Origin: Phycisphaerae bacterium
GTDB taxonomy: Bacteria; Planctomycetota; Phycisphaerae; Sedimentisphaerales; Anaerobacaceae
Assembly (NCBI GenBank): GCA_012744475.1
Contig: JAAYBV010000008.1
Coordinates: forward strand, 1-64,000
Length of the DNA stretch: 64,000 bases
Direction: 5' to 3'
Shown here: one piece after another, positions 28,243 to 45,753 of the stretch
Position numbering within the stretch: position 1 is the stretch's first letter
Layout: each line of letters opens with the position of its first letter
Notes under the pieces: model-generated
Seen by the model: only the letters and a program-made list of their open reading frames with translations
Database searches by the model: none
Told to the model about the DNA's origin: nothing
Made by a program: the position numbers and the translations under genes

Positions 28243-28490
28243 CTTTGCGGGTCTGTGATCCTCTCTAACTGTCCGTCGTGCCGGCGTTTGACGGCTCTGT
28301 TCTCCCCACTTTTCTGCAATGTGGGGGTGGCGGAAGACGTCTTTCGTACAGAATGTGCTTTGTGGCGGCGCCGGGTCCCCATACAATGCACGCAGCGAAT
28401 CGCTGCGGGGGCAGAGGTGGACAGGCGGTTCGCTGCCCGGGATGCGGCTGGCCCGCAACGATGGAAAAACTGTGCGATGGAGGCCAATCT

Positions 28491-30131
28491 GTGACTGCTG
28501 ATTCTCGGAACGACTTGGGGTTGCACCAAGCCGGATATGCCCTCCTTTCAACCTGGATGCTGTGCTTTGTGTTCATCTTCGGTATGGCCGGCGGATGCAG
28601 CCGGGAGCACTACAAGGCGCAGGCGGACAAGGAAGTCTACGAGATCCTCGAAGACAAGTGGCAGGATGACTTCGGGCAGATGGCCAACTACCGGATCAGC
28701 GACGGCGGTCCGAATAACGTGGAGGTCCTCGAAGCGGTCCCGTCCGACCGCGTTTTGAGCCTGGCCGAAGCGGTCGAGATCGCGACGCAGTACAGCCGGG
28801 AATACCAGTCCCAGAAGGAATCGCTCTACCTGGCGGCGCTGGACCTGACGCTGACGCGGCATCGGTACGCGCCGCAATGGCTCGGAACGTTCGACGCCTT
28901 CTATGCGAGAAACAACGAGCGGGAGGACATCACTGCAGGGGCCGAAGGCAGCGTCAACAAGACGTTTCTCCTTGCCAATGGCCTTCGGGTCACCAGCGGT
29001 CTGGCCCTGGACTGGAGCCGGTTCCTGACGGGGGACCCGCAAACCTCGCTGGGTTCCGTGCTCACGTCCACCCTGGCCTTTCCGATCCTCGGCGCCGGCG
29101 CCGGTCTGTCCGAATGGGAGAACCTGACACAGGCCGAGCGCAATGTGTTGTATCGAATCCGTACGTTCAACCGCTACCGTCAGACCTTTGTGGTCTCGGT
29201 CATCAGCGACTACTATCGGGTCTTGCAGCAGCGGGAGGCCGTTCTCATCCAGGAGGCCAGCTACGCCAGGCAGGTGGAATCGACGAACCAGTTGCGCATG
29301 GAGGTCGACGTAGGTCAGCGACCCGCGTACGATTTGGGTGAAGCCGAGCAGCGGCTGCTCACCACCGAGCAGGCGCTGGTTTCGGCGCGCCAGCGTTATG
29401 AACAGACGCTGGACACGTTCAAGGTCCGCCTGGCCTTGCCCACCGACGCCAACGTGACGCTCGATCCGAACGAGTTGACGGCGCTGGCCGACATCGGGAT
29501 CAGCGAGCCGGCGTATACCGAGGTCGAGGCTATGGAGCTGGCCCTGGATCGTCGTCTGGATTTGGCCAACACCCGCGATGGCCTCGACGATGCCCAAAGG
29601 AAGCTGGAGCTGGCAGCCAAAGGGCTGGGCGTTCAATTGAACCTGGTCGGCAGCGCGAACGTCGCCTCGGAACCGGAGACGAAGTTCGCCTCGCTACAAT
29701 TCGACGAGGGCAACTATCGGCTGGGATTGGAGGGCGACCTGCCGCTGGACCGAAAAGCGGAGCGTAATGCGTATCGCGAGGCGCTGATCACGGCCCAGCA
29801 GCGTCAGCGAGGCTATGAAGAGCAGGTGGACGAGATCAAACTCGGCGTCCGCCAGGCGTATCGCGATCTGGCGGAGACGGCCGAGAGCTATCGGATCCAG
29901 CAGATCGGGCTGAACCTGGCCCGGAAGCGCGTGGAGGTCGAGAAGCTGTCGCTCCAGTACGGGCGCGGAACCGTGCGATTGCTGCTCGACTCCGAGGATG
30001 CGCTCGTGCGGGCACAGAATGACGTGCTCAGCGCGCTGGTCGATCACACGATTGCGAAGATGAGCTTCTTTCGAGATATCGGCGTCTTACAGGTCAGACC
30101 GGATGGAATGTGGGAGCATACGGCACCATGA
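28491..30131 (+). CDS. TolC-family outer-membrane efflux lipoprotein
   Basis: GGAGG seven bases before a GTG favours this start; the frame is open further upstream but without a ribosome site. The ~546-residue protein has a lipoprotein signal ending FIFGMAGGC (Cys36). It then shows the helical-hairpin pattern of outer-membrane efflux proteins: LSLAEAVEIATQYSREYQSQ, RLLTTEQALVSARQRYEQ and KRVEVEKLSLQYGRGTVRLLLDSEDAL. It would form the outer-membrane channel of a tripartite exporter. Its stop overlaps the adaptor's ATG (ATGA), so the pair is translationally coupled, followed by ATPase and permease genes. Confidence 0.88.
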   Translation: MTADSRNDLGLHQAGYALLSTWMLCFVFIFGMAGGCSREHYKAQADKEVYEILEDKWQDDFGQMANYRISDGGPNNVEVLEAVPSDRVLSLAEAVEIATQYSREYQSQKESLYLAALDLTLTRHRYAPQWLGTFDAFYARNNEREDITAGAEGSVNKTFLLANGLRVTSGLALDWSRFLTGDPQTSLGSVLTSTLAFPILGAGAGLSEWENLTQAERNVLYRIRTFNRYRQTFVVSVISDYYRVLQQREAVLIQEASYARQVESTNQLRMEVDVGQRPAYDLGEAEQRLLTTEQALVSARQRYEQTLDTFKVRLALPTDANVTLDPNELTALADIGISEPAYTEVEAMELALDRRLDLANTRDGLDDAQRKLELAAKGLGVQLNLVGSANVASEPETKFASLQFDEGNYRLGLEGDLPLDRKAERNAYREALITAQQRQRGYEEQVDEIKLGVRQAYRDLAETAESYRIQQIGLNLARKRVEVEKLSLQYGRGTVRLLLDSEDALVRAQNDVLSALVDHTIAKMSFFRDIGVLQVRPDGMWEHTAP

Positions 30132-31792
30132 AACCTAATGCAGGCAGTTCGATGCAGGACAAATCGGCGAGCAAACATCCGGCCATCCAGCGGACTGGGC
30201 GACCGAAGAAGCGGCGATGGTTGCTCCCGTTGGTTCTCTTTCTCATTGCGGCAGGCGCGGTCGTGCTGGTGGCTTCCATCAAGGGGAATGCGGGCGCCGG
30301 CACAACGTCCGGGGGCACGTTCACGGCGCGCCGGGACAACCTGGTCATCACGGTCAGCGAGGGCGGCAGCATCCGCGCGCACAAGTCCATCGAGTACCGC
30401 TGCGAGGTGGAATCGCGCGGCGCGCAGATCACGATCCTGAGCATCGTTCCGTCCGGGGCGTACATCAGTCAGAAGGACGTCGACGACGGGATGGTCCTGG
30501 TCAAGCTGGATTCCTCCTCCCTGGAAGACCAGTTGATCCAGGAGAGGATGGAACTGGCCAGCGACCAGGAGACCGAGACCTCCGCGAAGGAGGCCTACGA
30601 CATTCAGGTGATTCAGAATGAGAGCGACGTTGCTGATGGGCGGCTCCAGGTTCGGTTCGCTCTGCTGGATCTTCAGAAGTACCTCGGGGCGGCTCTGGCG
30701 GAACGGCTGACGCGAGACGTCAACGATGCGGTGGACCTGACCGAGTACGTGGCGCCGTTTCTGGTGGAGGTCAGGGATGATCCCAACATGCTGGACGGCA
30801 CGGCCGCCGGGCAGGAGCTGAAGCGGCTGAACGACGACATCGTTCTCGCCGAGGGCAACCTGAAAACGGCGCAGGCGCGATTGGCTGGAACGGAGAAGCT
30901 CCACGACGCCAATTACGTCTCGGAACTGGATTTGCAGGGGGACCGGCTCACGGTCGTCAACCGGGAATTCGCCGAGCAGAACGCCAAGGTGAATCTGGAT
31001 CTGTTCCTTCGTTACGATTTCCCGAAGGATGCCGAGCAGGCCCTGAGCGACTACATTGAAGCCGGACGCAAGCTCGAACGAACCTTCGCGGAATGCCGCT
31101 CCAAATTGGCGCAGGCGCAGGCCAGATTGGCCAACGCCCAGGAGCGGCTCCGGGCGCAGCAGAAGCGCGTCAGCGAGCTCGAGCAGCAGATCGCCAACTG
31201 CACGATGCGCGCCAAGGCCCCGGGCCTGGTGATCTACGGCACCGGCAGCACGGGAGACATGTTCCGCGCGATGCGAGGCCGAGGAGGCGGTGGCGCCGGC
31301 AGCGGCATGATCGCCGAGGGCGAGACCGTCTTTGAAGGCCAGACGATCATCTCGATGCCCGATACCGCCACCATGGTGGCCGAGATCAGCGTGCACGAGA
31401 CCGAGGTGGACAAGGTCCGTCCGGGACAGCCGGCCACGATCGTCATGGATGCGTTTCCCGACCAGGTGCTCCACGGCGAAGTGCTGGAAGTGGCTCCGCT
31501 GCCCGACCAGCAGCGCGGCTTCATGAATCCGGACCTGAAGGTGTACACGACCCTGGTGAAGATCGACGGGACGCACGACTTCCTCCGAACGCGGATGTCG
31601 TGCCGGGTCGAGGTTCTCGTGCGCGAGCTGGACGACGTGGTCATCGTGCCGATTCAGGTTGTCGCTACTCGTGGAGGTCGGAAGGTCTGTTACATCGCAA
31701 CCCCGCAGGGGCCGCAGCCGCGCGAGGTGCAGACCGGCGCCTTCAACGACACGTTTGTGCAGATCGTCAGCGGTCTGGAAGGCGGCGAATAA
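30128..31792 (+). CDS. HlyD/MacA-type periplasmic adaptor, ended by an in-frame TAA
   Basis: The ATG overlaps the TolC-like stop (ATGA). The 554-residue product has one N-terminal membrane span (WLLPLVLFLIAAGAVVLVAS), a lipoyl/barrel region (TVSEGGSIRAHKSIEYRC), a long coiled-coil hairpin (residues ~130-370, e.g. AQARLANAQERLRAQQKRV) and a C-terminal barrel (PGQPATIVMDAFPDQVLHGEV). It should link the inner-membrane pump to the outer-membrane channel. The end reads VQIVSGLEGGE, then TAA, then in the same frame VLLNPPLF. Homologues normally continue through this point (pattern GLxxGExVLLNPP), so the gene looks split by a stop codon. Confidence 0.88.
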   Translation: MKPNAGSSMQDKSASKHPAIQRTGRPKKRRWLLPLVLFLIAAGAVVLVASIKGNAGAGTTSGGTFTARRDNLVITVSEGGSIRAHKSIEYRCEVESRGAQITILSIVPSGAYISQKDVDDGMVLVKLDSSSLEDQLIQERMELASDQETETSAKEAYDIQVIQNESDVADGRLQVRFALLDLQKYLGAALAERLTRDVNDAVDLTEYVAPFLVEVRDDPNMLDGTAAGQELKRLNDDIVLAEGNLKTAQARLAGTEKLHDANYVSELDLQGDRLTVVNREFAEQNAKVNLDLFLRYDFPKDAEQALSDYIEAGRKLERTFAECRSKLAQAQARLANAQERLRAQQKRVSELEQQIANCTMRAKAPGLVIYGTGSTGDMFRAMRGRGGGGAGSGMIAEGETVFEGQTIISMPDTATMVAEISVHETEVDKVRPGQPATIVMDAFPDQVLHGEVLEVAPLPDQQRGFMNPDLKVYTTLVKIDGTHDFLRTRMSCRVEVLVRELDDVVIVPIQVVATRGGRKVCYIATPQGPQPREVQTGAFNDTFVQIVSGLEGGE

Positions 31793-32494
31793 GTGCTGCT
31801 GAATCCTCCGTTGTTCACGGAGTCTGCGGCCACTTCGTCGTTCCGTGAGCGACCGCGGAAGAACGGAAGCAATGCGAGCGACGCGAACGACTCATCCGCC
31901 GCGGCGCCGGCAGGAGAGGCGATGGGGCCAGCCCCGGCGACTCCGCAGATGCCGGGCGGGGTGGAGATGACCGATGAGATGCGGCAGCAGATGCGCCAGT
32001 TCAGACGTCAGGGCGATGGTCCGGGAATGCCGGGCGGCGCCGAGATGACGCCCGAGCAGCGGCAGCAGATGATGGAACGCTTCCAGCGTCAAGGCGGTGG
32101 CCCGGGAATGCCCGGCGGCGCCGAGATGACGCCCGAGCAGCGGCAACAGATGAGGGAACGCTTCCAGCGTCAGGGCGGCGGTCCGAGGATGCCCGGCGGC
32201 GCCGAGATGACGCCCGAGCAGCGGCAACAGATGATGGAACGCTTCCAGCGTCAGGGCGGCGGTCCGGGGATGCCCGGTGGCGCCGAGATGACGCCTGAAC
32301 AGCGTCAGCGGATGATGGAGATGACGCCCGAGCAGCGCCAGCAGATGATGGAGCGTTTCCAGCGACAGGGTGGTGGCCGCGGTCGCCGTGGCGGGAACGA
32401 TCCTGCGGGTGGGCAGGCCGGCCAGGAGACTCCGCCCAGCGGCCAGTCCGAGGCAGCACCGCCAGCGCCGCCGGCGGATGACCAGGCGAAGTGA
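31793..32494 (+). CDS. Repeat-rich C-terminal tail of the adaptor, separated by the in-frame TAA
   Basis: This 233-codon frame begins at the GTG immediately after the adaptor's TAA and in the same frame. Its first residues, VLLNPPLF, complete the adaptor's conserved end. The rest is low complexity: an Ala/Ser linker, then near-identical 27-residue units of the form MPGGAEMTPEQRQQMMERFQ followed by RQGGGPG. Such Met/Gln/Arg/Gly-rich tails are familiar on planctomycetal adaptor proteins. It may be expressed by reinitiation at the GTG (GGAAGG lies about ten bases upstream), by stop readthrough, or not at all. I regard it as one half of a broken or recoded gene, not a separate protein family. Confidence 0.65.
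   Translation: MLLNPPLFTESAATSSFRERPRKNGSNASDANDSSAAAPAGEAMGPAPATPQMPGGVEMTDEMRQQMRQFRRQGDGPGMPGGAEMTPEQRQQMMERFQRQGGGPGMPGGAEMTPEQRQQMRERFQRQGGGPRMPGGAEMTPEQRQQMMERFQRQGGGPGMPGGAEMTPEQRQRMMEMTPEQRQQMMERFQRQGGGRGRRGGNDPAGGQAGQETPPSGQSEAAPPAPPADDQAK
31949..32376 (+). repeat. Tandem 81-bp coding repeats (27 residues per unit)
   Basis: Unit starts at 31949, 32027, 32108, 32189 and 32270 are spaced 78, 81, 81 and 81 bases. The first unit is diverged and the fifth is cut short, running into a second copy of its own MTPEQRQQMMERF core at 32321. The central units are nearly identical in DNA, which indicates recent duplication. Confidence 0.9.
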
Positions 32495-32533: not shown

Positions 32534-33259
<726 letters not shown>

Positions 33260-33265
33260 GACGCT

Positions 33266-34573
33266 ATGTTCTTCTTTCGTCTCAAACGCACGATCAAGTT
33301 GGGAGCCAAGAGCCTCTGGATGCACCGGCTGCGGTCGACGCTGACGGCGCTGGGCATCATCTTCGGCGTCTCGTCCGTCATCGCCATGCTGGCGATCGGC
33401 GAGGGGGCCAGCCGGGACGCCCAGGAGAAGATCGCCCAGCTCGGCAGCCGCAACATTATCATCAGGACCATCAAGCCGCCCGAAGACCAGGCCGCCGGAG
33501 GGCAACAGCAGACCCTGATGGAATATGGCCTGACCTACGACGACGCCGAACGGTTTCAGAACGGCATTCCGGACGTCCAGGTGATCGTGCCGAACCGGCG
33601 GATCTCACAGCAGGCGCTGTATCGCACTCGCCGGGTGTCTCTGGAGGTCGTCGGGACCGTCCCCTGGTATCCGGAGATCTCTCCCACCCGTGTCCGGTTC
33701 GGGCGTTTTCTCAGCACCACTGACATGCACTACAAGCAGGGTGTCTGTGTTCTCGACGAACGCGTGGTCAAGGAGCTGTTCGCCTTCGACGACCCCATCG
33801 GCCAGGATGTGAAGATCGGCGGAGACTACTACCGCGTGGTGGGGATTGCCACCGAGCAGAGCAAGACGCCGGCTTCCACCGAACTGGAAACGAAGGACGC
33901 CACCGGAGCCAAGAAGGCCGCCGGCGCCAACGTGGGCGCTATGTACGTCCCCTTGACGACGGTGAAAGAGCGCTTTGGAGAGATGTCCCTGCAAGTCTCC
34001 TCCGGCGGCGCCGGGACGATGGAACGGGTCGAGCTCCAGGAGATCATCGTGCAGGTCCAGGATGTGGACATGGTCATGGGGACACGCCAGAGCGTCCAAA
34101 CACTTCTGTCCCGCTTTCACAAGAAGAACGATTACGAGATCGTCGTCCCGCTGGAATTGATGCGGCAGGCCAAAGACTTCCAGCGGATCTTCACCATTGT
34201 CCTCGGGTCCATCGCGGCCATCTCGCTGCTGGTGGGCGGCATCGGGATCATGAACATCATGATGGCGACCGTCAGCGAGCGTACGCGTGAGATCGGCATC
34301 CGTCGGGCCCTCGGCGCCAAGAAGAGAGACATCGTAATTCAGTTCCTCTCCGAGACCCTGATCCTGACGCTGTCGGGCGGCCTGCTCGGGATGGGGCTCG
34401 GCGCGCTGATCCCGTTCTTCGTGACGCACTTCGGGCAGATGCGCACGGTGATTACGGGCAGTTCGCTGATTCTGGCGTTCGGCATCAGCGGGGCCGTCGG
34501 CATCGCTTTCGGTCTATATCCGGCCTATCGGGCCGCCAACATGGACCCCATCGAGTCGCTGCGGCACGAGTGA
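33266..34573 (+). CDS. MacB/FtsX-type ABC transporter permease
   Basis: The protein has 435 residues. AGGACGCT precedes the ATG. The N-terminal span HRLRSTLTALGIIFGVSSVIAML is followed by a ~250-residue periplasmic domain and three C-terminal spans, including GSIAAISLLVGGIGIMNIMMATVSERTREIGIRRALGAKK, the FtsX-domain hallmark. ATPase and permease are separate chains here, unlike fused MacB. With the TolC-like channel and HlyD-like adaptor it makes a complete tripartite exporter for a drug, peptide, lipid or siderophore-like molecule; the cargo is not readable. Confidence 0.93.
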   Translation: MFFFRLKRTIKLGAKSLWMHRLRSTLTALGIIFGVSSVIAMLAIGEGASRDAQEKIAQLGSRNIIIRTIKPPEDQAAGGQQQTLMEYGLTYDDAERFQNGIPDVQVIVPNRRISQQALYRTRRVSLEVVGTVPWYPEISPTRVRFGRFLSTTDMHYKQGVCVLDERVVKELFAFDDPIGQDVKIGGDYYRVVGIATEQSKTPASTELETKDATGAKKAAGANVGAMYVPLTTVKERFGEMSLQVSSGGAGTMERVELQEIIVQVQDVDMVMGTRQSVQTLLSRFHKKNDYEIVVPLELMRQAKDFQRIFTIVLGSIAAISLLVGGIGIMNIMMATVSERTREIGIRRALGAKKRDIVIQFLSETLILTLSGGLLGMGLGALIPFFVTHFGQMRTVITGSSLILAFGISGAVGIAFGLYPAYRAANMDPIESLRHE

Positions 34574-43753: not shown

Positions 43754-44731
43754 ATGTCGAAGAACCTGGACCGTCGGTCGTTTCTGAGAAGCTCGCTGGT
43801 TGGATCGGCAGCGTTTGCCTCGGCCATGAGCCTGGAGGAGAAGGCCCTGCTGGCGGCGATGCAGGACGACTCGCCTCGGGGGCGGGGGCCTGCCGTCGAC
43901 GGGATGCCGGCGGGCAGGATTGGCAATGTGACGATCAGCCGCATCATCTGCGGCGGCAATCTCATCGGCGGCTACGCCCACAGTCGCGATCTGATCTACG
44001 TCTCCTCGCTTCTGAAGCACTACTTCACAGATGAGAAGATCATCGAGACGCTGACGCTCTGCGAGGAATCCGGCGTCAACACGATCAACGCCGGAACCAA
44101 TTCTCTCGGCGTGCTCAAGAAGTATTGGGACGAGCGGGGCGGGCGGATCCAATGGCTGGCCCAGTGTGTTCCCTCGGCCGACGACCTGACTGGCGACGTT
44201 CAAAAGGCGATCGACGCCGGGGCGACCGGCGCATACGTCATCGGCAACGTCGGGGACGCCTGGACGCGAGCCGGACGGGTCGATCTGATAGGTAAGGTGG
44301 TCGAATTCATCAGGCAGAACGGCCTGATCGCGGGCGTCGGCGGTCATGAGCTGGAAACGATCAAGGCCTGCGAGGAAGCCGCCTTGCCGGTGGACTTCTA
44401 CATGAAGACCCACCACAGCACCGATTATTGGTCGACCCGGCGGCCCGGGCAGAACAAGGATGTGATCGACAATTACGACGTGGACAACTACTGGGACAAA
44501 CACCCCGAACAGACGGCTGCGTATATGCAGAAGGTCCGCAAGCCCTGGATCGCTTACAAGGTGCTGGCGGCTGGGGCGGTTCATCCTTCGGATGGCTTCA
44601 AGTTTGCGTTTGAGAACGGCGCCGATTTTCTGTGCGTCGGAATGTTTGATTTTCAGGTTCGCGAGAACGCGATCATCGCCAGGAACGTATCGACCGGCCG
44701 GTTGAACCGCTCTCGCGCGTGGCATGCGTAG
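43754..44731 (+). CDS. Tat-exported TIM-barrel-like protein, first of a tandem pair
   Basis: The 325-residue protein begins MSKNLDRRSFLRSSLVGSAA, a twin-arginine signal. The body starts VTISRIICGGNLIGGYAHSR and has barrel-like repeats such as ETLTLCEESGVNTINAG, DVQKAIDAGATGAYVIGN and ENGADFLCVGMFDF. The opening resembles aldo/keto reductases (GG-N-G start, GVNTI), but the catalytic Tyr-Lys-His set cannot be located, so an NADP-dependent reaction is not claimed. Its closest relative in the window is the next gene, 14 bases downstream, which shares long matching blocks. Confidence 0.7.
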   Translation: MSKNLDRRSFLRSSLVGSAAFASAMSLEEKALLAAMQDDSPRGRGPAVDGMPAGRIGNVTISRIICGGNLIGGYAHSRDLIYVSSLLKHYFTDEKIIETLTLCEESGVNTINAGTNSLGVLKKYWDERGGRIQWLAQCVPSADDLTGDVQKAIDAGATGAYVIGNVGDAWTRAGRVDLIGKVVEFIRQNGLIAGVGGHELETIKACEEAALPVDFYMKTHHSTDYWSTRRPGQNKDVIDNYDVDNYWDKHPEQTAAYMQKVRKPWIAYKVLAAGAVHPSDGFKFAFENGADFLCVGMFDFQVRENAIIARNVSTGRLNRSRAWHA

Positions 44732-44745
44732 ATTGGAGTGATGGT

Positions 44746-45753
44746 ATGGCAGACAAGCAAGTCGATCGACGTGGGTTCATCAAGAAGTCCGTGGCGGCCT
44801 CGGCCGGCATGGCCCTGGGGCTGCACAGCTTCGAGGAGCAGAATCTCCGCGCGCAGATGAGCGAGGGCAGCGCCAAGGCCCCGGAGAAGTCGCAACCGGG
44901 AGCCTTTCCCTGTGGGAAGATCAAGGACCTGACGGTCAGCCGGATGTTCTGCGGCGGCAACCTCATCGGCGGATGGGCCCACAGCCGCGACCTGATCTAC
45001 GTTTCGAGCCTGGTCAAGGCCTACCACAGCGACGAGAAGGTGTTCGAGACCCTGGCGCTGGCCGAGGAGATGGGCGTTAACACGATTCTGGGCAATCCCA
45101 CCGCCGATCGCGTGCTGAATCGCTACTGGAATGAACGGGGCGGCCGGATCCAATTCATCTCCGACTGCGCCGCCGGCAGTACGATCAAGGAGGGCGTCAA
45201 ACGATCCGTGGATAGCGGCGCCCATGCAGTGTATGTACAAGGGGGGTTGGCCGATGCGGCTGTCCGTGACGGCAAGACCGACCTCGTCGGCGAAGCGCTC
45301 GAATACATGAGGCAGTTCGGTCTGCCCAGCGGGCTCGGCGCCCATGACCTCGAGACGATCAAGGCCTTCGTCAAGGCGGGCTTCAAGCCGGACTTCTGGG
45401 TCAAGACCCTGCATCCGGACAACTACTGGTCCGCGACGGCGCAGGAGCACCGCAAGGCGTTTGACGCCGTCGGGCCCTCGGGCGAAAGGCACGGCGAGCC
45501 TCACGACAACATGTGGTGCCGCAACCCGAAAGAGACGATCGAGTACATGAAGAGTCTCAAGGAGCCTTGGATTGCGTTCAAGGTGCTGGCGGCCGGGGCC
45601 CTCCATCCGCGCGAGGGCTTCAAGTTTGCCTTCGAAGGCGGAGCGGACTTCATCTGCGTTGGGATGTTCGACTTCCAGCTTCGCGAGAACGTGATTCTCG
45701 CCCAGAATACGCTGGCCGGCAAGCTCGACCGCGAACGCGCCTGGTGTGCGTAG
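44746..45753 (+). CDS. Tat-exported TIM-barrel-like protein, second of a tandem pair
   Basis: GGAG eight bases before this ATG selects MADKQVDRRGFIKKSVAAS, a twin-arginine signal; the product has 335 residues. It matches its upstream neighbour along the whole length: GGNLIGGWAHSRDLIYVSSL, WNERGGRIQF, GLGAHDLETIKAF, PWIAFKVLAAGALHP and FEGGADFICVGMFDFQ. The pair arose by tandem duplication and the copies have diverged. A periplasmic enzyme or binding protein acting on a sugar-like ligand is plausible but unproven. Confidence 0.7.
   Translation: MADKQVDRRGFIKKSVAASAGMALGLHSFEEQNLRAQMSEGSAKAPEKSQPGAFPCGKIKDLTVSRMFCGGNLIGGWAHSRDLIYVSSLVKAYHSDEKVFETLALAEEMGVNTILGNPTADRVLNRYWNERGGRIQFISDCAAGSTIKEGVKRSVDSGAHAVYVQGGLADAAVRDGKTDLVGEALEYMRQFGLPSGLGAHDLETIKAFVKAGFKPDFWVKTLHPDNYWSATAQEHRKAFDAVGPSGERHGEPHDNMWCRNPKETIEYMKSLKEPWIAFKVLAAGALHPREGFKFAFEGGADFICVGMFDFQLRENVILAQNTLAGKLDRERAWCA

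Follow-up and report, generated by a model that had tools for sequence, protein, structure and literature searches.

The question raised by this locus is whether a TAA codon lying within the gene of a periplasmic adaptor, between the intact genes of an export operon, is a genuine mutation, and what such a stop would mean for the exporter. The window, that is, the whole stretch of 64,000 nucleotides that was analysed, is part of contig G000:C30 (143 kb), from a genome of 5.75 Mb assembled in 118 contigs. On the plus strand, the gene order is TolC-like OEP, adaptor, ABC ATPase, and MacB-type permease (Table 1). The adaptor belongs to the HlyD-like periplasmic adaptors, scoring 39.1 bits against PF16576 (cut-off 30) and 33.4 bits against PF13437 (cut-off 22.2). 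With the MacA equivalog profile NF008606 it reaches 48.1 bits against a cut-off of 342; it is MacA-like, not MacA.

Table 1 Features of the adaptor locus, with positions in the window
Feature	Position	Strand	Basis
OEP, TolC-like outer membrane efflux protein, operon partner, intact	28380..30131 (start approximate)	+	Pfam PF02321, E 3.4e-15; open frame
MacA/HlyD-type periplasmic adaptor, 554 aa, shortened by TAA	30128..31792	+	PF16576 and PF13437 over gathering score; full-length alignment to congeners
In-frame TAA	31790..31792	+	Sense codon at the aligned site in 33/33 relatives
VLLNPP segment, conserved end of the adaptor core, now past the stop	31793..31810	+	Aligns with E. coli MacA about 359-363
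Low-complexity variable tail, frame still open; dispensable in orthologs	31811..32494	+	Open frame; ortholog lengths
81-bp tandem repeat, 3.9 copies, coding EMTPEQRQQMMERFQRQGGGPGMPGGA	32006..32319	+	Within adaptor tail
MacB-type ABC ATPase, intact	32534..33259	+	PF00005
MacB-type permease (MacB_PCD plus FtsX), intact	33266..34573	+	PF12704, PF02687

An in-frame stop codon divides the adaptor from its C-terminal end

The adaptor open reading frame (30110/30128 to 31792) has its most likely start at ATG 30128, the residue from which congeners align. Its C-terminus reads ...FVQIVSGLEGGE, with GLEGGE immediately followed by TAA at 31790-31792. Past the stop the same frame continues from 31793 to 32494, where GTG CTG CTG AAT CCT CCG encodes VLLNPP, followed by LF, and it stays open until a TGA at 32492-32494. 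The first-pass annotation had proposed that the TAA separates the adaptor from its own C-terminus and occupies the variable x of a GLxxGExVLLNPP ending. The first point is confirmed by the reading frames together with the uninterrupted gene in 33 of 33 relatives, and the second by homology that is unbroken on both sides. We judge the ending restored across the TAA to be no chance resemblance, since the codon sits at the variable x and the flanking homology is continuous, at 91-92% identity to the nearest congener.

The stop codon is absent from relatives

Of 80 related genomes searched, 76 contain the adaptor or a relative of it, and nine loci came from a scan of genome contigs; the related records are metagenome assemblies of Phycisphaerae/Planctomycetota. 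Every one of the 33 distinct relatives read at the aligned site (41-91% identical) has a sense codon there, for E, K, Q, N, T, A, V, D or R, and each continues for at least 16 further residues, a VLLNPP-like segment being kept in nearly all. The usual sequence around the site is GL..GE/D-x-V.LNPP-like, and the weakest match is KVSLVPS in L030. In the nearest relative (G001/L033, 91-92% identical) the codon is GAA, a single substitution away from TAA, and G004 and G005 have GAG, as expected if one substitution produced the stop, which had been the earlier suggestion. None of the 33 relatives read shares the stop, nor was the same stop followed by a separate downstream gene found in any of them. 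Judged from these alignments, only the window genome, of all those read, has the stop, which one substitution suffices to explain. This is the pattern of a disabled allele, a disabling change with no counterpart in intact orthologs; the conservation of the stop that would mark programmed readthrough or a split gene was not seen among the 33 relatives.

The comparison also divides the conserved end of the adaptor, the VLLNPP segment, from a dispensable tail. Beyond the VLLNPP-like segment the tail of relatives ranges from about ten to about 180 residues, and the shortest orthologs have no tail, yet retain the segment. Within the tail, the 81-bp repeat at 32006-32319 is in frame and codes for MTPEQRQQMMERFQRQGGGPGMPGGAE; it is present in fewer copies in the congeners G004 and G005, and thus the copy number differs among species. 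A related MTPEQRQQ motif, 89% identical over 35 bp, occurs in the tail of a paralogous adaptor on contig C117 of the same genome.

These observations bear on the possibility that the split is tolerated or functional, the 554-residue adaptor working as such and the tail being made separately, through a restart of translation at GTG 31793 or low-level readthrough. The GTG directly adjoins the stop, a GGAAGG stands 10 nt upstream (31777-31782), the frame of the tail is unchanged and free of stops, and the tail is dispensable in orthologs. However, the stop is found in no relative, and the GTG and GGAAGG already exist in G001 as codons for V and LEGGE, that is, as ordinary coding sequence, and are therefore not evolved signals. 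Moreover, a product restarted at the GTG would have no N-terminal anchor and would presumably be cytoplasmic, so that the tail would not complete the adaptor. Nearly every ortholog retains the VLLNPP segment, which is therefore unlikely to be dispensable. We consider such a tolerated split improbable. Its more specific form, in which a real and fixed stop turns the core and the repeat-rich tail into two products through TAA-GTG termination-reinitiation and the adaptor works without VLLNPP, seems to us very improbable.

Selection on both sides of the stop codon

Changes on the window branch and on the branch of its sister G001 were counted with G004 as outgroup; the neutral expectation is about 2.4-3.0 nonsynonymous changes per synonymous change. 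In the adaptor, 16 nonsynonymous and 51 synonymous changes fall on the window branch, versus 33 and 65 on the G001 branch (Fisher p 0.22). The tail is the informative part, because it would have been freed from selection once the stop appeared; in its comparable portion the counts are 4 nonsynonymous and 10 synonymous on the window branch versus 10 and 7 on the G001 branch, numbers kept small by the end of the G001 contig about 83 codons into the tail. Relaxed selection or further decay on the window branch was seen neither in the adaptor nor in the tail. The claim of the first-pass annotation that the downstream part shows no decay therefore holds, as borne out by the open frame, the retained repeats, and the tail counts.

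Selection thus acted on both sides of the stop until very recently, so that the stop either arose only at the tip of the branch or is not real. On these counts the stop is either very recent or an assembly error, and its reading as a pseudogene or disabled allele appears compatible with a very recent event only.

Sequence quality around the stop codon

A base-call or assembly error, with the adaptor uninterrupted in the organism, would agree with two of the findings, namely that both flanks of the stop are without decay and that the difference is a single substitution shared by no relative. We compared the window with the open reading frames of G004, G005, G029 and G002, whose matches cover about 39 kb. 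The TAA of the adaptor is the only interior stop assignable to a conserved coding frame in the part compared; in the coding sequence for which congeners allow a comparison, no other interior stop and no frameshift was found. The remaining stop matches appear, from checks of their frames, to lie in antisense or shifted (shadow) frames, outside genes, or before gene starts. Apparent frameshifts at 37.97, 44.7 and 55.05 kb were judged to be opposite-strand shadow frames over intact genes, on the basis of a dsbD-like gene at 37.97 kb and of the lists of open reading frames at 44.7 and 55.05 kb. A scan for split genes that relied on intrinsic codon usage was insufficiently sensitive, as it missed the adaptor stop too. 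We found no paper on stop codons in such assemblies.

Since no second interior stop or frameshift emerged in the comparable coding sequence, the sequence is not visibly rich in errors, and this tips the balance slightly towards a real mutation and away from an error. By our own estimate, stop-making substitution errors in an assembled genome should also be few. An error is, nevertheless, a reading that we hold to be possible, if doubtful.

A reassigned or suppressed TAA would likewise leave the frame open past the stop. Against this, TAA terminates 14 of 86 long open reading frames in sampled stretches of the genome, the window has a single tRNA, which is a normal tRNA-His, and in none of the other conserved coding frames of the window was a TAA found. 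Neither the window nor the sampled stretches give the signs of stop reassignment, which we regard as extremely improbable.

As a separate observation, the plus strand of the window carries at 43754-45753 two adjoining, slightly overlapping paralogous genes of 325 and 344 aa that share HSRDLIYVSSL and a ENGADFLCVGMFDFQ-like sequence. They form an apparent tandem duplication, and G004 carries at least the first gene of the pair.

Predicted effect on the exporter

The explanation that we consider probable is one recent nonsense substitution in a MacA-like adaptor gene, with the exporter probably disabled or much reduced and a paralogous operon intact. The first-pass annotation had left three options for the stop, and of these a recent mutation or an error is favoured, whereas tolerance by readthrough or reinitiation is not, because the stop is unshared, readthrough has no conserved basis, and a restarted tail would lack a membrane anchor. 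Between the two favoured options, we give the larger part of our confidence to a very recent nonsense change and a clearly smaller part to a sequence error, a weighting that partly reflects our own prior. We infer both the reality of the stop base and its functional effect.

With such a nonsense substitution, translation of the adaptor would stop at codon 31790-31792. The shortened protein would retain the membrane anchor, the helical hairpin, and the lipoyl and barrel regions, and would lose the final conserved segment of the membrane-proximal domain together with the disordered tail. By alignment, the adaptor core matches E. coli MacA to residue 358 (GLEAGD), and the alignment of an intact congener runs on to MacA 363 (EVVIG); the lost segment corresponds to MacA 359-363, and therefore the stop takes away the end of the membrane-proximal domain. 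NCBIfam adaptor profiles also reach beyond the truncation point. In the AlphaFold model of an intact congener (10 sequences), the C-terminal end has a pLDDT of about 25-55, too low to confirm the strand.

The membrane-proximal domain of adaptors is important to pump function (PMC4446572). The G of GLEAGD/GLEGGE aligns with the signature glycine of MacA, the essential Gly353, and the lost segment lies just after it. The Gly353Cys change renders MacA inactive, the ATPase of MacB not being stimulated while partner binding stays intact (reviewed in PMC4338810). By analogy, the stop would likely cause loss or strong reduction of adaptor function, the shortened adaptor probably being unable to stimulate its MacB-like partner properly; partial function is possible, since MacA Gly353Cys still binds its partners. 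The exporter would probably be disabled or much reduced in the window genome. In addition, the untranslated stretch past the stop could exert a putative polar effect that lowers expression of the ATPase and permease.

The paralogous operon on G000:C117 has the OEP, adaptor, ATPase and permease, and its adaptor is uninterrupted (L056:12397-14365); this operon could buffer the loss of the window exporter. The event looks like one of the ordinary gene-breaking kind; if real, it would be a further case in which an efflux operon has just been broken while the organism carries redundant copies of the adaptor. Gene callers may annotate here a 233-residue 'hypothetical protein' which is nothing more than the adaptor's detached tail.

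Comparison with known systems

The orthologous adaptors of Phycisphaerae/Sedimentisphaerales (L033-L041 and others) are proteins of the same kind, 41-91% identical; those read extend 16 to 184 residues beyond the site at which the window adaptor is stopped. The homology to E. coli MacA (PDB 3FPP, 5NIK, 9QGY), the adaptor of the MacAB-TolC ABC efflux pump, covers ~245 residues including the GLEAGD ending. The neighbourhood, comprising an adaptor, an ABC ATPase, a MacB-like permease and a TolC-like protein, is of the same type. Unlike in MacAB-TolC, the ATPase and permease are encoded here by separate genes and the hairpin region is longer; unlike MacA, the adaptor gene has a long variable tail past the adaptor core, and its MacA equivalog score is 48 versus 342 bits.
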